Shown here: positions 37,287 through 52,698 of the stretch, piece after piece
Layout: every line of letters starts with the position of its first letter
Position numbering within the stretch: position 1 is the first letter of the stretch
The notes under the pieces: generated by a model
The model's database searches: none
Seen by the model: the letters and a program-made list of their open reading frames with translations, nothing else
Told to the model about the DNA's origin: nothing
Program-made: the position numbers and the translations under genes
Assembly: GCA_021296065.1 (NCBI GenBank)
Contig: JAGWBD010000002.1
Location: 1 to 64,000 of the forward strand
Origin: Anaerolineae bacterium
GTDB taxonomy: Bacteria; Chloroflexota; Anaerolineae; Aggregatilineales; Phototrophicaceae
Direction of reading: 5' to 3'
DNA length: 64,000 bases

Positions 37287-38051
37287 ATGTATACCCTGGC
37301 AACAGCGAAACAACTGCGAACCCGCCTGGATCTCGAACCCGGCAACAGCGCGGGCGACGAGCGTCTGTGGCGCGCGCTGAGCGCCGCCAGCGCGCGCATC
37401 GAAAGGGACAGCGGCCGCCGTTTCACGCCGCGACTGGCCACATTGCCTCACGCAGCCCGCCACCCGCGCGAGCTGGCCCTGCTGGACGACCTGCTGCACT
37501 TGCAACGCCTCGGCAACGGCGACGCCCGCGATATCGACCTCAGCGACGTGCAGACCCTGCCCGCCGCGGCGGAGGGCAGCGCCAGCGTACTGCGCCTGAC
37601 TGGCGAGCAGCGCTTCAGCGGGCCTGGCGCCATCCAGGTGAGCGGCCTCTGGGGCTGGCACGATCGCTGGTCACAGGCCTGGCGCAGCGGCGTTGACACG
37701 CTGCAGGACGACCCGCTGACGGCTGCGCCGACGACCCTGCTCGTCAGCGACAGTGGTCGCTTCCAGCCAGGTCAGTTGCTGCGCGTCGGCGACGAGTACC
37801 TGCGTCTGCTGGCCAGCGACGGCAGCAACCAGGAATTGCAGGTGCAGCGCGGCGCGCAGGGCACGACGGCCACCCATCACAGCCAGGGCAGCGCCATCGA
37901 CGTCTACCAGCCGGCGGCGGCCGTCAATCTGCTCTGCCTGCGCCTGGCGGCGTGGCTCTACCGCGAGCCGGCGCGCATCCCCGCCGCCGACCTGCCCGCC
38001 GACGTCGCCAGCGAACTGCGCGCCCTGCGCCGCGAGAGCGCCGCGTCCTGA
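37287..38051 (+). CDS. Phage head-tail connector (gp6-like) protein
   Basis: This 254-residue protein begins like phage DNA-packaging/head-tail connector proteins of the gp6 family ('YTLATAKQLRTRLDLEPGNS', 'LWRALSAASARIERDSGRRF'). An inserted beta-rich middle resembles adaptor decorations (GAIQVSGLWGWHD; 'TLLVSDSGRFQPGQLLRVGD'), followed by a helical C-terminus ('NLLCLRLAAWLYREPARIPA'). It would sit beneath the portal ring. The ATG at 37287 has 'aagggagctgacc' upstream. It is isolated among cellular genes, 19 kb from the capsid gene and 2 kb from the tail genes, but on the same strand and in the expected order. A hairpin follows its stop. Confidence 0.82.
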   Translation: MYTLATAKQLRTRLDLEPGNSAGDERLWRALSAASARIERDSGRRFTPRLATLPHAARHPRELALLDDLLHLQRLGNGDARDIDLSDVQTLPAAAEGSASVLRLTGEQRFSGPGAIQVSGLWGWHDRWSQAWRSGVDTLQDDPLTAAPTTLLVSDSGRFQPGQLLRVGDEYLRLLASDGSNQELQVQRGAQGTTATHHSQGSAIDVYQPAAAVNLLCLRLAAWLYREPARIPAADLPADVASELRALRRESAAS

Positions 38052-39947: not shown

Positions 39948-40087
39948 GAGACAACCCTCGCCGTCGGGTCGGGTGGCGGGGAGTGTAACGCAAACGGACG
40001 GACAGGGCTGTTGGGGACGCCCTCACCCCCCGGCCCCAGGTCCTTGCCTGCATTCAACAGACCCTTATGTCCAAAAGGAGGTTCACC

Positions 40088-40558
40088 TTGCCGCCATTAC
40101 GCGACGCATTGACCCGTCTGGCCGGGCTGGAAGTGCCCGGCATCGCCCACAACTTCGCCATCGACCAGCTGCCCGCCGTGCTCGACCGCAGCCAGGCGCC
40201 GGCCCTGCTGGTGCTGCTGCCCGGCCTGCGCGAGCGCGAGGCTTCGCTCTTCCGCGAGCAGGGCGAGGCCTTCAGCGCCCTGACATTCAGCGAGAGCCCG
40301 CGCCAGGCCACTGTGCTGGTGACCCACCTGCTGCTGGTTTCGCCGCGGGGCTCCGCCGCCGGTCTGCGCGGCAACCTGCCCGCGCTGGTGGACGGCATCG
40401 ACGCCTGCCTCAGAGCCCTCACCGCCGACGTCACTCTCGGCGATGCCCTGGCGACACCGACGCAGGTTCGCGTCGAGCCCGGCGCCTTTCGTTACGGCGG
40501 CGTCGACTGGCAGGGCTGTGCCTTCCGCCATCGCTGGCTGCTGGAGTTGCAACCATGA
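40088..40558 (+). CDS. Phage tail terminator/completion-like protein
   Basis: This 156-residue protein is the first gene of the phage tail block. Its layout resembles tail terminator or head-tail completion proteins: an N-terminal helix (LRDALTRLAGLEVPGIAHNF), a central beta-strand 'VLVTHLLLVSPRGSAAGL', a long helix 'LPALVDGIDACLRALTADV' and a final strand with 'FRYGGVDWQGCAFRHRWLLE'. The start is taken as TTG at 40088 because AAAGGAGG lies exactly six bases before it; an in-frame ATG at 40067 has no ribosome site. It overlaps the next gene by ATGA. The family assignment rests on shape and position. Confidence 0.6.
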   Translation: MPPLRDALTRLAGLEVPGIAHNFAIDQLPAVLDRSQAPALLVLLPGLREREASLFREQGEAFSALTFSESPRQATVLVTHLLLVSPRGSAAGLRGNLPALVDGIDACLRALTADVTLGDALATPTQVRVEPGAFRYGGVDWQGCAFRHRWLLELQP

Positions 40559-42075
40559 GCCTGCGCTGGAGCGTGTATCTCGATCACGACGACGACGGCC
40601 GCTTCGACGGCCCCGACGAAGACATCAGCCAGGCGGTGCTGGCGATTCGCTGGCGCCGCGGCATGGAAGGCCCCCACGACAGCGTCGCGCAGCCGGGTCA
40701 GGCGGAGGTCACCCTGCGCAACCGCGACGGTCGCTTCTCGCCGGAGCGCGGCGAACTGGCGCCGGGCCGTCTGCTGCAGATCCGTAGCCATGACGGCGCG
40801 CAGTCCCGCGTCCACTTCAGCGGCCACGTCGCCCGCGTCGAGCCGCAGGCCGGCGCCCACGGTGCGCGCCGCGCCCTGCTGATCGCGCAGGATGCCAGCG
40901 CGCAACTGGCCGCCTACCCCATTCGTCTGCCGCCCATGAACGCCCGCCACGCGGACGAGATCATCGCGCGCTGCCTCGACGCCGTGCCCCTGCGTCGCGC
41001 GCGCCTGCAGGGCACCTGGCTGCTGGGGCAGGCCAGTCACAGCGAACTGGGAAGCAACACGCGCCTGGCCCCGCTCAACATCCGCCGTCATCCGGGGCGC
41101 GACCCGGACCGGCTGGCCCGCGTCGGCGATACCTGGTTGGCGGGAATCCCGGCTTTGGCGGCCATCGCCGAAGTCTGCGCCGCCGTGCGCGGCCGCTTCC
41201 ATATCGACCACGAGGGACAGGCCGTCTACCTCAGCCGCCATCACCTGCTGCAACACATCGAGGCGCAGGCCAGCTTCCGCGATGACATGCAGGGCCTGCG
41301 TTACAGCTGGGCCGACGAGCGCGTCAGTCAGGTCGAGGTGCTGCTGACGCCACGACGGCAGGGCCCGCCCGACACGGTGGTCTGGACCCTGCTGCAGTCG
41401 CTGCCCGTCCTGCGCTCACAGCGGGTGTTACTGCGTTTTCGCGACGAATACGGCCAGCCCTGCGCCGCGCTGGACCTGATGGCGCCGGCCGCCGGGCGCG
41501 ACTGGCGCGCCAACGCCAGCCCCGACGGCAGCGGCGCGGAGCTCACGGCGCGAGTGACACTGCTGCTGCGCGAGGTCGGCATCAGCGCGGCGCTGCTGGA
41601 GATACGCAACAGCGCCCGCGTGACCGCCTGGCTGCAGACCGGCGCGCGCTTGCGCGGCACGCCACTCTACCGAGGCGATCCGCTGTTGGTGACTCAACGC
41701 AGCCTGGGCAGCCAGAACCGCCATGGCCCGGCCACGCTGCGCCTCGACCTGCCCGCGCTCGACTCGCTGACCCAGGCCCGCTCCCTCGCCCGCTTTGAAC
41801 TGGCCCGCCGCCAGGCGCCGCGCGGATTCGTTCACAGCATGCAGCTGGAAGGCGCGGCGCAGGTGCGGCCGGCCCTGGCGCGGCGACTCTTCGATCGCAT
41901 CCGCATCGGCGAAACGCAGACCGGCCACCAGGACGACTACTTCATCATCGGCGAGGCGTTCGAGGTCTCGCCGGACAGCCGCCCGCGCCTTAGCTGGCGC
42001 CTGGAGAGCGCCGGCAAGCCCTTCTGGTCGCTCGGCCGGCGCCGTCTCAACCGCGACGCCGTGCTGGCCTGGTAA
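40555..42075 (+). CDS. Phage tail/baseplate-like protein
   Basis: This 506-residue protein begins with a beta-rich module common at the N-terminus of phage tail proteins in this kind of genome: 'LRWSVYLDHDDDGRFDGPDE', then 'VLAIRWRRGMEG' and 'GQAEVTLRNRDGRFSPERGE'. The middle has domain features of tail hub/gpD-like proteins ('HADEIIARCLDAVPL', 'FHIDHEGQAVYLSRHHLLQH'), and the C-terminus returns to beta structure with 'DDYFIIGEAFEVSPDSRPRL'. The start ATG overlaps the previous stop. It likely forms part of the tail tip; the exact role is inferred. The protein is Arg-rich and GC-rich like the host. Confidence 0.7.
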   Translation: MSLRWSVYLDHDDDGRFDGPDEDISQAVLAIRWRRGMEGPHDSVAQPGQAEVTLRNRDGRFSPERGELAPGRLLQIRSHDGAQSRVHFSGHVARVEPQAGAHGARRALLIAQDASAQLAAYPIRLPPMNARHADEIIARCLDAVPLRRARLQGTWLLGQASHSELGSNTRLAPLNIRRHPGRDPDRLARVGDTWLAGIPALAAIAEVCAAVRGRFHIDHEGQAVYLSRHHLLQHIEAQASFRDDMQGLRYSWADERVSQVEVLLTPRRQGPPDTVVWTLLQSLPVLRSQRVLLRFRDEYGQPCAALDLMAPAAGRDWRANASPDGSGAELTARVTLLLREVGISAALLEIRNSARVTAWLQTGARLRGTPLYRGDPLLVTQRSLGSQNRHGPATLRLDLPALDSLTQARSLARFELARRQAPRGFVHSMQLEGAAQVRPALARRLFDRIRIGETQTGHQDDYFIIGEAFEVSPDSRPRLSWRLESAGKPFWSLGRRRLNRDAVLAW

Positions 42076-42111
42076 CCCCATCCACCCCGTTCATCGAATA
42101 CAGGAGCAACC

Positions 42112-42636
42112 ATGACCCCCACCTGGCACACACCGCTCACCTGGCAGGTCGATCAACTGGTGACCGAGGCCGACCTCAACGGCCAGTTGCGCGACAACCT
42201 GACCTTTCTGAAAGACCCGCCCACCGCCTTCGTGCGCCTCGACGAGGAAGCGGACTACACCACCAGCAGCGACGAGTTCGTCGACGTCGACCGCGAGCGC
42301 CTGGCCCTGAAGCTGACCACGGCCGGTGGCGATCTACTGGTCGTTTACTTCGGCATGCTGTTCAATGGCTTCAGCGGCGGCGGCGTGGCCCTCGACGTCG
42401 CGCTGGATGGCAGGCGCGTCGGCAGGGACGACGGCCTGTTGATCGGGGGCATCTCGGACCGCAGCTGGACGTCGGTCAGTTTTACGGCGCTGGTGCGCGA
42501 CCTGGCCGCGGGGTCGCACCAGCTTTACCTGCAATGGAAACGCACGAAACAAACCGGCGTCGCGCAAATGCTGGCGGGCGCCGGCACCCTCAACCTTGAC
42601 GTTCATCCCCAGTTCTGGGCGCGGGAGATCAGCTGA
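42112..42636 (+). CDS. Phage tail-associated protein
   Basis: This 174-residue protein opens with 'WHTPLTWQVDQLVTEADLNG' and 'QLRDNLTFLKDPP', a leader pattern seen in tail-fibre-like proteins of prophage regions. After it comes a beta-sandwich-like domain (residues ~50-170; 'LLVVYFGMLFNGFSGGGVAL', 'RSWTSVSFTALVRDLAAGSH'). It may decorate the tail or bind a receptor. The ATG follows 'caggagcaacc'. It is separated from the upstream tail gene by 36 bp and from the next gene by one base, so all are one operon. Confidence 0.65.
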   Translation: MTPTWHTPLTWQVDQLVTEADLNGQLRDNLTFLKDPPTAFVRLDEEADYTTSSDEFVDVDRERLALKLTTAGGDLLVVYFGMLFNGFSGGGVALDVALDGRRVGRDDGLLIGGISDRSWTSVSFTALVRDLAAGSHQLYLQWKRTKQTGVAQMLAGAGTLNLDVHPQFWAREIS

Positions 42637-42637
42637 C

Positions 42638-43027
42638 ATGCGCGAGATCGTCATCAGCAACATGCAGGGCGTGAACGTGGAGGCCCTCGACGCCAGCCTG
42701 CGCGCCCTGCCCGACGCGGCGGTGAAGGGCATCAGCCTGCGCCGCGGCAGCGTCATCGTGCACCTCGGCGCGGACGCCGACGACAAACAGGCCGTCGCCA
42801 TTCGCAGCCTCGTCAGCGGCCATGACCCAAAGCAACCGAGCGCGGCGCAGCGGGCGCAGAAAACGCGCGAAGCGCAGATCAGGACGGCGCACGACGATGC
42901 AAAAGCGGCGCGTCAGGCGGTGGCCGACGCCACGACCCTCACGGAGCAGGTGACCCTGCTGACGCGCCGCATCGACTGGCTTGAGCAACTGCTGGAGGCC
43001 CTGGTCGCCGGCGAGAAGTCCCTTTAG
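42638..43027 (+). CDS. Small phage-operon protein with C-terminal coiled coil
   Basis: This is a 129-residue protein. The N-terminal part ('EIVISNMQGVNVEALDASLR') looks like a small alpha/beta fold ('VKGISLRRGSVIVHLGADAD'), followed by a long charged helix (AQRAQKTREAQIRTAHDDAK). The helix ends in a Leu heptad pattern, 'LTEQVTLLTRRIDWLEQLLE', probably a coiled coil. No family was recognised. It begins one base after the preceding tail gene and is the last gene of the phage tail block; a GC-rich hairpin follows. Confidence 0.65.
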   Translation: MREIVISNMQGVNVEALDASLRALPDAAVKGISLRRGSVIVHLGADADDKQAVAIRSLVSGHDPKQPSAAQRAQKTREAQIRTAHDDAKAARQAVADATTLTEQVTLLTRRIDWLEQLLEALVAGEKSL

Positions 43028-43045
43028 GCCGCAACAACCATCATC

Positions 43046-43072
43046 CCGGCCCCGTCACACTGACGGGGCCGG
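43046..43072. terminator. Hairpin at the convergence of tail operon and giant gene
   Basis: CCGGCCCCGTC (43046-43056) and GACGGGGCCGG (43062-43072) form a perfect 11-bp stem with loop ACACT. It includes the stop codon of the minus-strand giant gene and lies 19 bp past the last tail-gene stop. There is no U-tract on either strand. Confidence 0.55.
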
Positions 43073-46000
43073 CCCTGACGCCCGGTCGCAGGTGACGCTG
43101 ACCGCGTAGTAGCCCGGCCCGCTCATGCGCCAGGTCAGGCTGCTGGAGTCGTCATCCAGCCCCAGATCAAAACGATACAGGCCGTTGCGCCAGTCGGTGC
43201 GCGGCGAATAACTCTGCACGATCAGCGACTCGCCCGTTTCGATGACATCCTCGTACATCTCATCGACCGGCAGCGGCCCCTCTGCGTCCGGCAGCCAGAC
43301 CTCGACCTCCACGAAGTCCCGTTCCGAACCGCCCCGCGTGATCCACAGGTCCTTCCAGTCCACCTGTTCCGGCGGGAACTCCAGCACCAGCAGCGTGCAG
43401 CCGGTCGCCTCGTCCTTATGGAGCGCGCCGGTCCGCACGTCGGCGTCGGCTTCAAGCGGCGTGGGCGTCGGCGTCAGGGTGGGCGTGGGCGTGGGGCTGG
43501 GCGTCCAGGTGAGCGTGGCGGTGGGCGTCACCGTGGCGGGCGGCACAGACCGGTCGCAGGAAATGTAAATCACCTGATCGCCGCCGCGCTTCAGGTCCCA
43601 GAAAACTTCACTGACCCTGCCATCCAGCTCGATCTGCAGACGATACATCCCGTCGGGCCAGCTGCCGAAGTTGCGGTAGATCTGCCAGACGAAGGGCTCG
43701 CCTGAATCGTCGAAGGTCTCGTTGCGCCGACTGGAATACTCGTAGGGTTGACTGTCGCCGGGGCGGTAGACCCAGGCCTCCACCTCTTCCTGCCTGCTGT
43801 CCGTAAACACCAGATGAAAGTGCCCGTCCAGACCTTCATGGTCGAGGAACAGATCACAACCGGTAATGAAGTCGCGCAGGTTTTCCCCCCGGCCCAGCAC
43901 CCTGGCCCGGGTGGGAACGGGCGTGCGCGTTGGTGAAGACGTGGCTGTGGCGGTCGGGCTGGGCGTGGGCATGGCCGTCGGGGTCAGGGTCGCCACGGGC
44001 AATTGATTCTCGTCCGTGTTGCAGAAGACGTAAATGAGCTGGTCGCCGCCGCGCTCAAGTTCCCAGAGCCCCTGGGTGGTCCTGCCGTCCAGCTCGATTT
44101 CGAGGCGATACAGCCCGTCGATCCAGGGAGACGTCACCGAGTAGTATTGCCAGATGAATGGCTCGTCGGATTCGGCGAAGACGTCATCAATGCGGTCCGT
44201 GTGACGCAGCGGCGCGTCGGAGCCGGGGCGGTAGACCCGGGCCTCGATGTCCTCGTACCTGTCTCCCGCCAGCGCCAGGTTCAGATCGCCATCCAGGGCA
44301 TCCGGATCGACAATAATGTCGCAGCCAGTGTGGTCATCCCGATAGATCACGTCCGTCTCCAGCACCCTGGGCGGCGTGGGCTCGACGGAGACCTGCGCCT
44401 CATCCCGGCCGGCCCCCTGTCTGTCCGGGGACGGGGCCGACCCGGTCAGATTGAGGTCAGGCGCGTCACAAAGAACCGTGATGATCTGGTCGCCCGCGTT
44501 TTCGAGTTGCCAGTCGAAGCGGCTGCTCTTGCCATCCAGGCTGATTTCAAGCTGCCAGGTCCCGTCCCGCCAGGTGTCGTCGGTCTTGTAGTACTGCCAG
44601 TCAAGCGGCAGGTCCGCTTCCTCAATGTCGTCCCGGAAGCGGCCGGAAAAGGGGACCTGCGAACTTTCGCCAGGGCGGTAAACCCTGACGACCACGTCTT
44701 CCGGTCTGGGTGAGGTAATCCAGATGTTCAGGTCGCCATCCAGCGTTCTGTCGGAGACCAGGATTTCACAGCCCGTGTGGTCATCACGCCAGGCCACGTC
44801 CGTCTCCAGCAACCTGGGCGACGCAGCGGCGGGCGCGGGCGTGGCAGGGGTCGCAGGAATGGCGCGGGTCTCTTCGCAAATGATCAGGAAGAACTGGTCC
44901 GTCGGAAATTCCATGCGCCAGGCGTAGGCGCTGATGCGGCCATCCAGTTCCACCTCCAGACGGTAAAGCCCCCAGGGCCAGTCCAGGTCGGCGCTGTAGT
45001 TTTGCCTGATGATGGGCGGTTCACCCTCAACCAGGTATCTTTCGACACGGTCGCTGAAGGGCAACGCCTGCCCGGCGCCAGGGCGAAAGAGCCTGACCTC
45101 GACCTCGGCCCGGCGCTCACCCGAGAGCACCACGTCAAGGTCCTGGCCCGGGCTTTCCGGGGCGAGGCGCACCAGGCAGCCGTTTTGTGCGTCGCGAAGC
45201 GTGTCCCCGACTTCCATAACAATGGCGGGGGTGGGGTCGGCTGTGACGCCCGCCGCCGGGACCTGGGAGATTTGCGTGGCTGCCGCCGAAATCGGCCCTG
45301 GGCCGGTCTCACTGTCGAGCGTTTCCGGATCGTTGCAAATGATAAAGATGGCCGTTCCGCCGGACCGGGCCGGAACCCACTCCACCAGGTTGGACCTGCC
45401 GTCCAGTTCGATCAACAGACGGTAGGGCTCGCCTGCGCTGACCAGAACGCCCTGATAGACGTGCTCGATCATGGTGCCGTCGGACTCTTCGAGACTGATC
45501 GTCGAGCGATCGGAATACGTCAGGGGTTCACTCGCTCCGGGCGCAAAAAAGTCAAAGCGGACATCCTCATGGCGCTCGCCTCCCACCATGATGTGCAGCA
45601 CGTCAAACAGTTGCCGGGCGCCGAGCAGGACCGTGCAGCCGGTCCTTTCGTCCAGAATCATGCTGGTGTCTTCAAGCACCATGTCCGGCGCGCGCGTCGT
45701 CAGCCAGCCGGCCAGCCAGACCGGTTCGCCGTTCACCAGCGCCTGATACCAGTCGCCCTCGACGGCGTAGACCGGCAGGTTTGTCCCTCCCGCCACCTGG
45801 CCGACCCGCTCACAATCCGCGCTGGCGCAGGCGCGCAGGTTCAGGGTGTTGTTCGTGACCGCCTGGAACAGGGGAGCACCCTGACCGGGTTCTTCGGCAT
45901 CCGGCACCCTGGGCGGGGTGGGCGTGGGGCCGACTGTGACCTCCGCACGCTCCTGCCCGGGCGGGTCCTCGTCGCAGAGGATGAGAAGCGACTGGTCGCG

Positions 46001-47839
46001 CGGCGCTTCCATGTGCCAGACAAATTCGCTGACCTGACCCTCCAGTTCCAGCTCCAGTCGGTAAAGCCCGGCCGGCCAGCCCTGGTCCGCGGCGTAAAAT
46101 TGCAGCAGGTAGGGCGCGTCGCTGTCCGTAAAAGTCCTGTTCAGACGCCCGTCAGACGTCCTGGGACGGATCTCGTCAGGTCCAAAGACCCTGACTGCGA
46201 GGTCCTCCTGGCGCTCACCCTGGAGCAGGAGATTCAGGTCATCGTCCACGCTCTCCGGGAAGAGCACGACGATGCAGCCGGTGATCGGATCATGGTGTGA
46301 CTCTTCCAGTTCCAGCATGACCGGCGCCTGATCCGACGCGGACTCGCCCGTCGGCGACTCATCGCAATCGACGAAGAGAAAGTATTTGCCCAGGGACTCC
46401 ATGTTCCAGACTAGGGCGCTGCCGCTTTCGCCAAGCTTCAGTTCGATGCTATAGAGGCCCGGCCGCCAGTTCAAATCGCTGGCATAGGTTTGGGCGATGT
46501 ACGCTTCGCCATCGTCGAACTGGCCGACTTGTTTCTCAGGCTCCGCCATCAGAGCCGTATCGTCGTCGGGAAGAAACAGCTCGACCCGGACCTCGCGTCG
46601 CTGTTCCCCGATGTAAATGACCTCGAAACCCGCCTGCTCCTCTCCCGCGGTCGCGACGAGGTTGCAGCCAGTTTCCCGGTCGCGGTAAATCTCTCCGGTC
46701 AAGAGCAATTGTGGCGGCGCATCGCCGGTCACGAGCGTGTCGGCAAGACGCTCACATTCGACGAGCAGCGCATACCTGCCCGGACTTTCCATTTCCCAGC
46801 CAAATACACTGCTGACTTCGCCCAGGTTCAGTTCGATGCGATAGAGACCGGCACGCCAGTTCGCGTCGCGGGAATAAAACAGGGCTACGTGCGCTTCGCC
46901 CTCGTCAGGTTGATCTTCCTCTTTCTCACGCTCGGGCTGCAGCGCTGTTTCTTCTCCGGGTAGAAACAGGTAAACCCGGGCCTCCCGCCGCCTTTCCCCG
47001 AGCAGCAGGACATCCAGACCCGCTTGCCCCTGCAGTGCGGACAGAAAGAGGTTGCAGCCGGTTTCCTGGTCGCGGTAAATCTGTTCGGCCACCAGCATCC
47101 GTACCGGAGCCTCGCCGGTCACAGACGCGGCGGCGGGTCGTTCGCAATCGACGAGCAGCGAGTATTCGCCCGGGCCAGGCATTTCCCATTCAAATTCACT
47201 ACTGAGTTCGCCCAGGCCCAATGCAAAGCGATAGCGGCCCGCGGGCCAGCGCAGGCTTGCCGGCCAGGTGCGGACAGTGACGGGATTGCCCATCACGTCC
47301 GTAAGGGACTCCCGGCTGTCCGCCAGCGGCAGGGCGCTGGCGGCGCCAGGCAGGAAAACGTCCACGCGCACCTCGCGTCGGCCGTCTCCCGCCAGCAATA
47401 GCGCAAGGTCGCCGGCCTCGTCGGCCACCTTGCCCACGAGAAGCTTGCAGCCGGTGACGGGTTCCTCCCAGGTCTCGCCCATCGCCAGCAATTTGACGCG
47501 AGTCGGCGTCGGGTCCGTCGCAGGCAGACGCGTCGTCAGCCAGCCGGCCAGCCACACCGGTTCCCCGTCCACCAGCACCTGGTACCAGTCCCCCTCAACG
47601 GCGAGGACCGGCAGTTCCGTCCCGCCGGCCACCTGGCCGACCCGGGCGCAGTCCGTGCTGCCACAGGCGCGCAGGTTCAGGGTGTCATTGGTGACCACGC
47701 GAAACAGGGCGTCATCCTGGGCGCTGACCGCAATTGCCAGCAGCAGTCCGGTCGCGAACAGCAGGACCAGCAAAGGAATCTTTATCCTGCGGCCTGTGGG
47801 CGCTGCAGCTGGTGTAATGTGCCTGGATGCTTGCTTCAT
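43055..47839 (-). CDS. Giant secreted protein: two SH3 domains and ten Cys-paired repeats
   Basis: This is a 1594-residue exported protein. After a signal segment ('IPLLVLLFATGLLLAIAVSA') come two bacterial SH3 domains, one at the N-terminus and one in the middle ('NDTLNLRACGSTDCARVGQV' and the near-copy 'NNTLNLRACASADCERVGQV'). Around them are ten repeats of about 100-130 residues. Each opens with D-x2-T/N-G-C ('YRDRETGCNL', 'WRDDHTGCEI', 'LRDAQNGCLV'), contains a 'VxLFxPG' strand and a 'W..GLYR.EL.L.G..S.F.W' motif, and ends in a second Cys ('VDCERP', 'ILCDED', 'VTCDRA'). The C-terminal linkers are TPTP-rich. The repeat family was not recognised. ATG at 47839 overlaps the sulfatase-like stop (ATGA). 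Confidence 0.82.
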   Translation of the reverse strand: MKQASRHITPAAAPTGRRIKIPLLVLLFATGLLLAIAVSAQDDALFRVVTNDTLNLRACGSTDCARVGQVAGGTELPVLAVEGDWYQVLVDGEPVWLAGWLTTRLPATDPTPTRVKLLAMGETWEEPVTGCKLLVGKVADEAGDLALLLAGDGRREVRVDVFLPGAASALPLADSRESLTDVMGNPVTVRTWPASLRWPAGRYRFALGLGELSSEFEWEMPGPGEYSLLVDCERPAAASVTGEAPVRMLVAEQIYRDQETGCNLFLSALQGQAGLDVLLLGERRREARVYLFLPGEETALQPEREKEEDQPDEGEAHVALFYSRDANWRAGLYRIELNLGEVSSVFGWEMESPGRYALLVECERLADTLVTGDAPPQLLLTGEIYRDRETGCNLVATAGEEQAGFEVIYIGEQRREVRVELFLPDDDTALMAEPEKQVGQFDDGEAYIAQTYASDLNWRPGLYSIELKLGESGSALVWNMESLGKYFLFVDCDESPTGESASDQAPVMLELEESHHDPITGCIVVLFPESVDDDLNLLLQGERQEDLAVRVFGPDEIRPRTSDGRLNRTFTDSDAPYLLQFYAADQGWPAGLYRLELELEGQVSEFVWHMEAPRDQSLLILCDEDPPGQERAEVTVGPTPTPPRVPDAEEPGQGAPLFQAVTNNTLNLRACASADCERVGQVAGGTNLPVYAVEGDWYQALVNGEPVWLAGWLTTRAPDMVLEDTSMILDERTGCTVLLGARQLFDVLHIMVGGERHEDVRFDFFAPGASEPLTYSDRSTISLEESDGTMIEHVYQGVLVSAGEPYRLLIELDGRSNLVEWVPARSGGTAIFIICNDPETLDSETGPGPISAAATQISQVPAAGVTADPTPAIVMEVGDTLRDAQNGCLVRLAPESPGQDLDVVLSGERRAEVEVRLFRPGAGQALPFSDRVERYLVEGEPPIIRQNYSADLDWPWGLYRLEVELDGRISAYAWRMEFPTDQFFLIICEETRAIPATPATPAPAAASPRLLETDVAWRDDHTGCEILVSDRTLDGDLNIWITSPRPEDVVVRVYRPGESSQVPFSGRFRDDIEEADLPLDWQYYKTDDTWRDGTWQLEISLDGKSSRFDWQLENAGDQIITVLCDAPDLNLTGSAPSPDRQGAGRDEAQVSVEPTPPRVLETDVIYRDDHTGCDIIVDPDALDGDLNLALAGDRYEDIEARVYRPGSDAPLRHTDRIDDVFAESDEPFIWQYYSVTSPWIDGLYRLEIELDGRTTQGLWELERGGDQLIYVFCNTDENQLPVATLTPTAMPTPSPTATATSSPTRTPVPTRARVLGRGENLRDFITGCDLFLDHEGLDGHFHLVFTDSRQEEVEAWVYRPGDSQPYEYSSRRNETFDDSGEPFVWQIYRNFGSWPDGMYRLQIELDGRVSEVFWDLKRGGDQVIYISCDRSVPPATVTPTATLTWTPSPTPTPTLTPTPTPLEADADVRTGALHKDEATGCTLLVLEFPPEQVDWKDLWITRGGSERDFVEVEVWLPDAEGPLPVDEMYEDVIETGESLIVQSYSPRTDWRNGLYRFDLGLDDDSSSLTWRMSGPGYYAVSVTCDRASGPAPSV

Positions 47840-49347
47840 TCGATGTACCCCAGCGCTCGTAGTGTCCCCGCCACGCCGGCGTCTGGCTCCCACTCGCGCG
47901 TCGCCTGCTGCGTCGCGGGCAGGGCAGCCAGCATCTCCCGCCGCAGACGCTGCGCCAGTCCCGGCTGCTGCGGCGCCAGGTTGCGCCATTCGAAGGGATC
48001 CTGCTGCGTGTCGTAAAGCGCTTCCACCTCCTCGCCGCAGAGCAGCAGCCGATGGCGCCCGCTGACCATGGCGCGACGCGGTTGCGCCAGACGCTTGCGC
48101 GCCAGCAAGCCCGGGTGGCGCTGTCGCAAAAGTGCCAGCAACGTCTCGGGGGGCCAGGCCTCGCTGAAGACCCGGTCCGCGTCATCCTGTCCCTGCGCCG
48201 CCGTCGCCAGGTCCAGACGCGCCACGTCGGCGTCCGGCGCGGCCGCGTCCATTGGCGCGTCCAGGCCGGCAGTTGCCAGCGTTGTATGGAAGACGCGGCG
48301 CGTGGAGACGGGTGTGTTCACGCGCTGGCCGGCGGGGAAGCGCCCTGCGGGGTCATACACCAGCAGCGGCACCTGCACCAGCTCCTGTGGCACCCCGAAG
48401 CCGTGGCCCATGAAACCGTGCTCGCCGTGGGTCTCGCCGTGGTCCGCGACGACGATGATCTGGGTATCGGCCAGCGCGCCCATACGCTCCAGCGTCTGGA
48501 ACAGGCGCGCCAGTTGTGCATCCTGCTGCAGGATTTCGGCGTCGTAGGCATCCAGCAGCGCCTGGCGCTCGTCCGCCGTCAGCATTGGCTCCGGCGGCAG
48601 GGTCCAGCGCGCGGCGCGGGCGTTGAAGCGGCGCACAAACCGCCGCGCCTGCGGCCCGTGGTCGGGCGCGATGCGTTGCAGGGCTTCCCGCCGCGGACGC
48701 CAGGGCAAATGGGCGCCCATCAGGTTGAGAAAGATGAAGTGGCGCGCGTCCGCGTCCCCGGCGCGTTGCTGGCGAAACCAGTCGCAGAGGTCTTCGATGG
48801 AGCTGGCGCCATCGCCCCTGAAGCGAATCAGCCGGGTCCACAGGGGCGCCAGACGCGGGCGCATGGCGGCGCGAAAAAGCAGGTTCGAGCGGGCGCCCCG
48901 CTGCTGGACGGGTTGCATGAGGCGCCCCCAGGCCCTGCCCTGCGCGCGTACGCGCAGGGCCGGTCGGCAGCGAGCGACGCCGGCGTAACTGAAGAACTGC
49001 GTGAAGCCGCGCTGCAGGCCGCAATCCAGCGCGGCCAGCAGGGGATTGTTGCAGAAAGCTGTCGTCTGCCAGCCGGCGGTCTGCAGGATTTCCGCAAGCG
49101 TCGCGTGTCGCAGCCCCAGGCGGTCGTTCACCTGGCTGAGCTGATGGACGGAGGGATAACGGCCGGTGAAGAGCGAGGCGTGCGCCGGCAGGGTCCACTG
49201 CGCCGGCGACCAGGCGCGGCCGAAAAGTGCAGCGCGGCCGGCGAAGTCGTTGAGCGCCGGCGCGGTCGGTCGTTGGTAGCCGTAGGTGGAAAGGTGATCG
49301 CGCCGCAGGGTGTCGAGGACGACGAGCAGGATGTGGCGCGCGCTCAT
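47836..49347 (-). CDS. Sulfatase-like hydrolase of the alkaline phosphatase superfamily
   Basis: This 503-residue enzyme has the sulfatase fold. It starts 'HILLVVLDTLRRDHLSTYGY' (metal Asp12) and has the metal-binding 'IIVVADHGETHGEHGFMGHG' and a late 'ALYDTQQDPFEWRNLAPQ'. The nucleophile motif reads T52-L-P-A-H56 in 'QWTLPAHASLFTG', not C/S-x-P-x-R. A formylglycine cannot be made there, and Thr probably acts directly, as in phosphodiesterases and phosphoethanolamine-transferase-like members. No signal peptide is visible. The ATG at 49347 begins at the fold start. It is translationally coupled to the giant secreted protein downstream, which suggests a shared surface role. Confidence 0.88.
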   Translation of the reverse strand: MSARHILLVVLDTLRRDHLSTYGYQRPTAPALNDFAGRAALFGRAWSPAQWTLPAHASLFTGRYPSVHQLSQVNDRLGLRHATLAEILQTAGWQTTAFCNNPLLAALDCGLQRGFTQFFSYAGVARCRPALRVRAQGRAWGRLMQPVQQRGARSNLLFRAAMRPRLAPLWTRLIRFRGDGASSIEDLCDWFRQQRAGDADARHFIFLNLMGAHLPWRPRREALQRIAPDHGPQARRFVRRFNARAARWTLPPEPMLTADERQALLDAYDAEILQQDAQLARLFQTLERMGALADTQIIVVADHGETHGEHGFMGHGFGVPQELVQVPLLVYDPAGRFPAGQRVNTPVSTRRVFHTTLATAGLDAPMDAAAPDADVARLDLATAAQGQDDADRVFSEAWPPETLLALLRQRHPGLLARKRLAQPRRAMVSGRHRLLLCGEEVEALYDTQQDPFEWRNLAPQQPGLAQRLRREMLAALPATQQATREWEPDAGVAGTLRALGYIE

Positions 49348-49477
49348 TGAACAATCCGCCTGGTCATGGTGTATCGGCGATGCATACCCTGTCGCCATGC
49401 ATTGCCGTCAGATCAGTGAGAAGGAACCTTGTTTCCATGCTGCTCCCTCATGACAGGTACACGATTCTCGTGTCCGG

Positions 49478-50135: not shown

Positions 50136-50250
50136 GCCGGTTCCCTTCATCCGATTCCAAGTATAACGCGCGGCGCAGTCCCTGTTGCCACAGGGAACTA
50201 CTTGCGGCACAATAACCGCGGCTCTTCCAATCAAGCAAAGGAGGCCGTTG

Positions 50251-51339
50251 ATGCGCAGCAAAAAAGCCCTGTTGATCGTGATTGCGCTCTGCCTGCTGAC
50301 CATGCCCACAGTGGCGCAGGAGGCCGAAGCCACGGCCGAAATCAGTTGGCCGCCGCCTGTTTATCTCCTGCGCGGCGAGGTCTCCCTCAGGGGCACGGTT
50401 AACCTGCCTGGCATGACCAGTTATTACATTGAATATCGCGCGCTGGATGACGACCTTATGGCGCCGGACTCGCGCGCCTACCTGCCGGTTACCCTGCCAT
50501 CCGGCACACCCGTCGTGGATGACGTGCTGGGCACCTGGGATACGGGCATCGTTGCCGATGGTCTTTACGAGTTGCGGCTGAATGTCGTGACCCCTGGCGG
50601 CGAGATGATGCGCCAGGTGCTCGGGCCCCTGCGCGTGGAAAACGAACGCATGCCGGACGAAGGCATGGGGGTGGTCATGGAAGAAGAGACGCCTGTGCCC
50701 GATGAATCGCCAAGAGTGACGGCGCGCGTCAACGCCAACGTTCGCACGGGCGACAGCACCAGCTTCCGCGCCATCGACGCCCTGCTCACCGGCGAAAGCG
50801 CGCCGATTCTGGGCGTCAGCAGCAGGGGCAGCGGCTGGTACCAGATCGCCCTGCCCAACGGGCGCCGCGGCTGGATCTCGGACGTTGTGGTGCTGGTGTC
50901 GGGCAACATTGAAAACCTGCCGCGCATCGTGCCGCCGCCGCTGCCGCCCCCGCCGACGATTACACCGGTTCCCGCCAACGCCGACCTGATCGTCGAGTGG
51001 ATCAACTTTGAACCTGAGCAGCCGCGTTGCAACGAGGCGGTTAAAATCACGGCGCAGATTGCCAACATCGGTTCGGGCAACTCGGGCGCCAGCGGCGTCA
51101 TCCTGGTGCAGGACTGGCACATCAACACCGGGACGATCAGCGCGACCACCAGCGGTGGCTTCCCTGCCCTCGAGCCCGGCCAACGCTTTACTGCGGTCAT
51201 GAACCTGACCGTGACCACCTTTTACAATGAAGGCCATCGTCTGGTGATCACGCTCGACACCGCCAACGCAGTGGCGGAGAGCAACGAAGGCAACAACAGC
51301 GCCAGTCGCGACTATACGCTGGCGCAGGCCGGCTGCTGA
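50251..51339 (+). CDS. Secreted SH3/CARDB protein, copy 1
   Basis: This is a 362-residue exported protein. The signal peptide 'RSKKALLIVIALCLLTMPTV' is cut near 'VAQ'. An Ig-like domain follows (residues ~30-130; 'PVYLLRGEVSLRGTVNLPGM'), then an SH3b domain ('VTARVNANVRTGDSTSFRAI', 'GWYQIALPNGRRGWISDVVV'), a Pro-rich hinge (PPPLPPPP) and a C-terminal CARDB-like beta-sandwich ('AVKITAQIANIGSGNSGASG' and 'AVAESNEGNNSASRDYTL'). The whole architecture repeats in the next gene, so this is a tandem duplication. It probably acts at the cell surface as a binding/adhesion protein. The ATG at 50251 has 'aaaggaggccgttg' upstream. Confidence 0.85.
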   Translation: MRSKKALLIVIALCLLTMPTVAQEAEATAEISWPPPVYLLRGEVSLRGTVNLPGMTSYYIEYRALDDDLMAPDSRAYLPVTLPSGTPVVDDVLGTWDTGIVADGLYELRLNVVTPGGEMMRQVLGPLRVENERMPDEGMGVVMEEETPVPDESPRVTARVNANVRTGDSTSFRAIDALLTGESAPILGVSSRGSGWYQIALPNGRRGWISDVVVLVSGNIENLPRIVPPPLPPPPTITPVPANADLIVEWINFEPEQPRCNEAVKITAQIANIGSGNSGASGVILVQDWHINTGTISATTSGGFPALEPGQRFTAVMNLTVTTFYNEGHRLVITLDTANAVAESNEGNNSASRDYTLAQAGC

Positions 51340-51427: not shown

Positions 51428-51573
51428 CAGCAGAAATTTGATGCAGAAGGCGATCATGCGTTCCTGAGCCCCCTGCCCGGGGGACTCGCGTGGCCGGGTG
51501 AAGCTGTCCGTTTGCCAGAGCAGAATTCATGCGGCACTATTGTGGCGACATAAAAAGTCTGTGGAGGCCTGTG

Positions 51574-52698
51574 ATGCGCAGCAAGTTAATCTCCATGTTC
51601 GCGGTTGTGCTGTGTCTGCTGGTCCTGCCCGTCGTGGCGCAGGAAGCGGAGGAACCAACGGCAGAGATCACCTGGCCACCGGCAGTCTATGTCCTGCGCG
51701 GCGAGGTCTCCCTGAGAGGCACTGTCAACCTCCCCGACATGACCAGTTTCTTCATAGAGTATCGCGCGCTGGATGATGACCTCGGCGCGCCCGACTCACG
51801 CCCCTGGCTACCTGTCTCCCTGCCATCCACCACAGCCGTGGTCGACGACGTGCTGGGCGCCTGGGATACCACTGCCGTGGAGGATGGCCTCTATGAACTG
51901 CGTCTGAACGTGCTTTCCGGCGGCGGCGACATGGCTCACCAGGTCGTATGGCCGCTGCGTGTCGAAAACCAGGACATGATGGCCGGCGACATGACCATGG
52001 TGATAGAGGAGGCGACGGAGGAGACGATGGCCGTCTCCGATGATTCGCCCAGGGTGACGGCTCGCGTCAACGCCAACGTGCGCTCCGGCGACAGCACCCG
52101 TTTCCGCATCATCGGCGTCCTGCGCAACGGCGACAGCGCGCCCGCGCTTGGCATCAGCAGTCGCGGCTCCGGCTGGTTCCGCATTGAACTGTCGGACGGC
52201 CGCCCCGGCTGGATTTCGCCCACTGTGGTAAACGCGTCGGGCGCGACCGACGACCTGCCACAGATCGTGCCGCCACCGCTGCCGCCACCGCCGCCGACTG
52301 TCGTCCCCACCGGCGACGTTGATCTGGTCGCCGGTCACATGCGCCACGGCTCGCCAGGAGGGGTAATTGTTTGCGGTGTGGGCTTTGTCGTTGAGGTTGA
52401 CGTGGCCAACTTCGGCACGACTCCTTCACCCGGAGGCAGGGTCCGTTTTCTTGACTATGGCCTCAAGAACGACGGGGGTCGGCGGGATGACGTTGCGCAA
52501 GAGACAATCGGGGAGTTCCCGCCCATCGCGCCCGGCCAGACCGTCGGCGCCAAGGCGTGGCTGACCGTATCTCGCCACGTCAACAGCAATCACGTTATCT
52601 ACGCGCAGGTCAACTTCGACAATGCGATTCCCGAGCGGACCAATGCGAACAACAACACGCAGATGGGCCTCTACAAACTCCAAAGAGGGAATTGCTAG
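51574..52698 (+). CDS. Secreted SH3/CARDB protein, copy 2
   Basis: This 374-residue paralogue of the preceding protein has the same domain order: signal peptide ('RSKLISMFAVVLCLLVLPVV'), Ig-like domain ('AVYVLRGEVSLRGTVNLPDM'), SH3b domain ('VTARVNANVRSGDSTRFRII', 'GWFRIELSDGRPGWISPTVV'), PPPLPPPP hinge and a C-terminal beta domain. The first two-thirds are close to copy 1. The C-terminal domain has diverged ('DLVAGHMRHGSPGGVIVCGV', then 'INDNAIPERTNANNNT'-like end), suggesting separate binding targets. The ATG at 51574 follows 'ggaggcctgtg'. Confidence 0.85.
   Translation: MRSKLISMFAVVLCLLVLPVVAQEAEEPTAEITWPPAVYVLRGEVSLRGTVNLPDMTSFFIEYRALDDDLGAPDSRPWLPVSLPSTTAVVDDVLGAWDTTAVEDGLYELRLNVLSGGGDMAHQVVWPLRVENQDMMAGDMTMVIEEATEETMAVSDDSPRVTARVNANVRSGDSTRFRIIGVLRNGDSAPALGISSRGSGWFRIELSDGRPGWISPTVVNASGATDDLPQIVPPPLPPPPPTVVPTGDVDLVAGHMRHGSPGGVIVCGVGFVVEVDVANFGTTPSPGGRVRFLDYGLKNDGGRRDDVAQETIGEFPPIAPGQTVGAKAWLTVSRHVNSNHVIYAQVNFDNAIPERTNANNNTQMGLYKLQRGNC

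Follow-up and report, generated by a model that had tools for sequence, protein, structure and literature searches.

An exported giant protein of Chloroflexota carrying ten copies of an unnamed, cysteine-paired domain

Bacterial Ig-like surface proteins and adhesins carry a signal peptide, a long tandem array of Ig-like domains and a putative envelope-binding domain, and Ig- and filamin-type folds also serve in tandem-domain rods. In the classical Ig domain, the cysteines sit in strands B and F with about 55-75 residues between them. Cell-wall peptides are ligands of SH3b domains in other bacteria. The protein described here, encoded in a 64,000-nucleotide stretch of DNA (the window) from an uncultured bacterium of Anaerolineae type, has likewise arranged parts, in the order signal peptide, SH3b, repeats R1-R4, SH3b, repeats R5-R10. 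We propose that it is an exported, SH3b-held acidic rod whose Ig-like domains serve in adhesion or in contact with a matrix, derived from a duplicated module, and we give this proposal as a whole about an even chance of being right.

Architecture of the protein and its repeats

The giant gene occupies 43055..47839, as first annotated, and lies on the minus strand: ORF reading places its ATG at 47839 and the end of its stop codon at 43055, and the frame is complete. Its product of 1,594 amino acids and 176 kDa is highly acidic (pI 4.3) and contains 24 cysteines, of which 20 make up ten repeat pairs and four belong to C-x4-C motifs in the SH3b domains. The signal peptide region, recognized from hydrophobicity and sequence, comprises residues 1-43 (47711..47839, minus strand). 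The sole hydrophobic segment of the protein is N-terminal, near residue 30 (19-residue windows centred on 26-33), and is followed by SAQ; this computation backs the export signal and supports assignment of the giant protein as exported. Hydrophobicity windows over the whole protein revealed no C-terminal transmembrane segment, and neither an LPXTG-like nor an SLH anchor came to light in it, so that the protein might be released. The Pro/Thr-rich linkers of the initial annotation are present, mainly before R9 and R10 and also after SH3b-1 and after R4.

The ten repeats were delineated by alignment and all lie on the minus strand: R1 (47135..47497, Cys131-Cys232), R2 (46745..47104, Cys262-Cys362), R3 (46355..46714, Cys392-Cys492), R4 (45965..46324, Cys522-Cys622), R5 (45326..45685, Cys735-Cys835), R6 (44867..45226, Cys888-Cys988), R7 (44459..44818, Cys1024-Cys1124), R8 (44012..44371, Cys1173-Cys1273), R9 (43547..43906, Cys1328-Cys1428) and the C-terminal R10 (43079..43447, Cys1481-Cys1584). 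When each repeat was left out in turn and scored against a profile of the other nine, it reached 72-133 bits, versus at most 10.4 bits for 500 shuffles of each, which bears out the original count of ten; R5 was the most divergent. The length first given, 100-130 residues, can be narrowed, as the domain itself has about 120 amino acids and its alignment is nearly gap-free. Of the two motifs first described, the opening D-x2-(T/N)-G-C holds in nine repeats and has E for D in R1, and the middle V-x-L-F-x-P-G exists but was drawn too strictly: the actual pattern is V-x-(V/L/F)-(F/Y/W)-x-P-(G/D), within which the proline alone is invariant across the window's repeats. The closing cysteine was correctly identified. 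Every repeat has exactly two cysteines, spaced 100 residues apart in eight of the ten, 101 in R1 and 103 in R10. Across 61 copies from 23 genomes these two positions (Cys17 and Cys117 in repeat numbering) are the only invariant columns, and both are kept in remote members too.

Both SH3 domains of the initial annotation were recovered, as two stretches matching SH3_3 (PF08239) over the Pfam gathering cut-off of 27 bits (60.9 bits, E 1.4e-16). SH3b-1 spans residues 52-100 (47540..47686, minus strand), has its own C-x4-C pair and is separated from R1 by a linker. SH3b-2, located by Pfam, module comparison and a pair model within residues 650-718 (45686..45892, minus strand), also carries a C-x4-C pair and runs straight into R5, a junction that it shares with relatives that have a single module. 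The model of SH3b-2 with R5 (pLDDT 92.9) has a pTM of 0.83, which suggests that the two hold a fixed relative arrangement; the best matches of its SH3b part are bacterial SH3b domains, with Z up to 11.9.

Family searches and predicted fold of the repeat

Two repeat profiles were used, a first one and a deeper one, A3. The domain had been described at the outset as unrecognized, and a high-scoring Pfam match had been named beforehand as the result that would overturn this. Scanned singly, 61 of 61 members gave no Pfam family over its curated cut-off, and their weak matches (best E 0.0015) were scattered over 26 unrelated families, each of them hit by 1-3 members. In the whole giant protein, SH3_3 alone exceeded the Pfam cut-off. 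NCBIfam and PHROGs matched the SH3b part or gave local matches that were short or weak, and named no family for the repeat, and neither profile had a significant match among PDB sequences. No match was found among plasmids with one repeat as query or among phage records with the whole giant protein, and literature on SH3 proteins of Chloroflexota yielded no useful lead. Several candidate identities were rejected: PPC (PF04151; best E 0.086) and P_proprotein (PF01483; best E 0.032), both below cut-off, DUF6440 (E 4e-5 with the whole protein, under cut-off), a 28-residue local match at the start of R2/R3, and PHROG 8801, a 19-residue local match at the same place.

The single-repeat structure prediction suggested with the initial annotation was performed with AlphaFold2 on R8 and the 61-sequence alignment. 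It produced a confident model of nine strands (pLDDT 93.3, pTM 0.87), in which Cys17 starts strand 17-22, second in predicted order and the earliest of the long strands, and the last strand, 111-117, finishes at Cys117. These predicted positions are what a staple near both ends of the domain would be expected to show. Together, the invariance of the cysteines and their strand positions lend good support to the early claim of one disulfide per repeat, and such a bond probably holds each domain.

The closest solved fold is DUF4426 (PA0388, PDB 3uc2), with an rmsd of 2.9 over 93 residues, 4% identity and a Z-score of 6.7, which is below 8 and may merely reflect a common arrangement. Transthyretin-like, filamin, Ig constant-type and beta-2-microglobulin folds follow at Z of about 5 (VIA). 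Foldseek comparison with Ig domains gave probabilities up to 0.99, but with E > 0.001 and TM of about 0.4, and against viral models it returned no match with E < 0.001. The disulfide pattern of classical Ig domains was not found, as the repeat cysteines are 100 residues apart on the second predicted and the last strand. Considering that the Z-scores are about 5-6.7 and that Foldseek E-values exceed 0.001, we describe the predicted fold as an Ig-like beta-sandwich in the broad sense only, to which no specific family name can be given. The repeat is a real, still unnamed domain family, new by sequence and ordinary by predicted fold.

Relatives, ancestral module and copy number

A3 matched 27 of 98 genomes of the window's own family, in 8 of 24 genera, and 33 of 154 genomes of the order; the matches outside the family were three genomes of one sister family and three weak ones. 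The weak matches (G043, G054 and G775; 2,092-aa frames in another family of the order, E 4e-4 to 9e-4) were rejected as chance because G043, the one read, begins with a Ser/Thr kinase. The first profile matched 5 of 298 genomes of the class, all five in the window's family, and the single match of A3 among 400 sampled genomes of the phylum was the window's own genome, which holds no further copy of the domain by the same profile. Judged by these profile matches in Chloroflexota samples, with other phyla covered by one scan of genome contigs for close relatives, the repeat domain appears lineage-restricted.

Relatives are mostly exported proteins with a length of about 270-390 amino acids, at whose C-terminal end one SH3b is followed directly by one domain. 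In one large genus, some members contain two or three domains but lack a recognized SH3b, and a few relatives have a transmembrane-like segment ahead of one domain. In another genus, three adjoining exported genes (L091, 2897-7170) carry divergent copies of the domain, numbering two, three and three, respectively, with no recognized SH3b, apparently an independent expansion through gene duplication. The unit of SH3b and one domain is kept across many genera, and because it prevails among relatives and its direct junction persists in SH3b-2 and R5, the single module looks ancestral. Since most relatives carry one domain, a stalk cannot have been the original role of the family.

These relatives bear on a tentative alternative, to which we assign distinctly less than an even chance: the module would be secreted and act as a ligand-binding or inhibitor unit, its target being a polysaccharide, a peptide or a protease, and the array would raise avidity or the number of sites, not length. 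Consistent with this, most genera have one SH3b with one domain and an often different N-terminal part, and the relative L009 has a C-terminal extension beyond the domain. The single-domain group shows strong conservation, perhaps beyond structural need, of the segment F-x-D-T-G-(E/D)-P-Y-I-x-Q-x-Y, whose F-x-D-T-G-E-P-Y-I-x-Q-x-Y form is the best candidate for a putative ligand site. Against this alternative, the window's repeats match the segment more weakly, and no Pfam match of the whole protein or the 61 members names a ligand or inhibitor.

At the same locus, after a sulfatase gene, species of the genus carry 2 repeats (G001), 10 (window) and 12 (G002). In a repeat tree, whose few columns leave the deep forks unsure, repeats of the window and G002 pair as orthologs with high support. 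In G002 the R6 and R7 types each occur twice, which would fit a duplication of the R6-R7 pair. R10, which has orthologs in both other species, clusters with the last repeat of G001, and the C-terminal domain would for this reason be old. Between the window and G002 the order of R2 and R3 (46355-47104) is swapped, with high support, relative to L023 repeats 3 and 2, which suggests recombination inside the array. By a simple NG86 estimate, dN/dS of orthologous repeats is mostly 0.2-0.5; because it is high in R3 (0.78) and R4 (0.69), constraint on some of the repeats may be weak.

The source genome is metagenome-assembled, 85% complete and in 178 contigs, as would suit a non-functional or assembly-made expansion. 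We disfavour this explanation as highly improbable: on an independent contig of another species, 12 orthologous repeats occupy this locus, the repeats are 18-52% identical to one another, too different for assembly artefacts, and dN/dS is below 1. The repeat tree and the three versions within one genus instead agree with the initial suggestion of a protein built by duplication, and support growth of the array by tandem duplication of the domain within the genus.

Gene neighbourhood, proposed role and known systems

The upstream gene (47836..49398, minus strand) encodes a member of the sulfatase/alkaline-phosphatase superfamily (PF00884). At the position of the sulfatase Cys/Ser this protein carries T (QWTLPAHASLFTGRYP), a difference that presumably indicates a phosphodiesterase or phosphotransferase and not a sulfatase. 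The start of the array gene overlaps its stop by 4 nt (ATGA), so co-translation is likely, and the two genes adjoin in both other species of the genus. The overlap and shared gene order would suit an array protein that acts as surface scaffold or anchor for this enzyme. We consider such a partnership unlikely, given that the genes are 174 nt apart in G002, that no signal peptide is obvious in the sulfatase-like protein, and that no sulfatase gene was seen beside those single-domain relatives of other genera whose surroundings were inspected (L087, L088 and L090).

Phage-like genes at 37287-38051 and 40067-43027 (plus strand), near a polyphosphate kinase 2 gene, converge on the array gene. They include a head-tail adaptor-like protein (PHROG 442, E 2e-5), and further ones resemble tail or baseplate parts by eye and have no PHROG matches. 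Because comparable genes adjoin the locus in the genus's other two species, the group may be a remnant that has been conserved or domesticated. On the upstream side of the sulfatase gene, 50185-51339 and 51529-52698 (plus strand) encode a pair of exported paralogs that combine SH3_3 with a C-terminal part of CARDB type; at least one of them has orthologs nearby in the other two species, which makes the region rich in exported SH3b proteins.

In the proposed rod, the signal peptide would export the protein and the two SH3b domains would keep it at the cell envelope, with the ten Ig-like domains projecting outward as an acidic rod. A disulfide would staple each domain from first core strand to last strand and confer resistance to unfolding outside the cell, and the Pro/Thr linkers would space the last domains. 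Adhesion or a part in the extracellular matrix would be the most likely role, and a plausible one. The array would have arisen by tandem duplication from a module of SH3b and one domain in the window's genus. A bolder reading, which we hold to be rather doubtful, is that the repeat founds a lineage-specific superfamily of disulfide-stapled Ig-like domains whose rigid SH3b unit binds a specific envelope or environmental ligand, with copy number tuned by duplication and shuffling between close species.

What the locus adds is an undescribed domain family, with a 61-sequence alignment ready for naming in Pfam and a confident model, in a lineage for which metagenomes are almost the sole source, and one locus with a 2-to-12-copy difference within a genus; ideas on surface-protein evolution stay as they were. 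Among known families, two copies of SH3_3 pass the cut-off, in the same order in relatives; they cover about 100 of 1,594 residues, and the lineage adds an extra C-x4-C pair. By structure comparison, filamin, beta-2-microglobulin and myosin-binding protein C share the broad fold class with the repeat, but these Ig/filamin-type folds match at Z of about 5 with no sequence relation, and the Cys pair of the repeat would link its first core strand to its last, whereas classical Ig domains link B to F. Compared with bacterial Ig-like surface proteins, the array has no known bacterial Ig-like Pfam match, shows no sortase or membrane anchor and appears confined to one lineage. A tandem Ig-like surface protein is a familiar kind of object; the domain family from which this one is made is undescribed.
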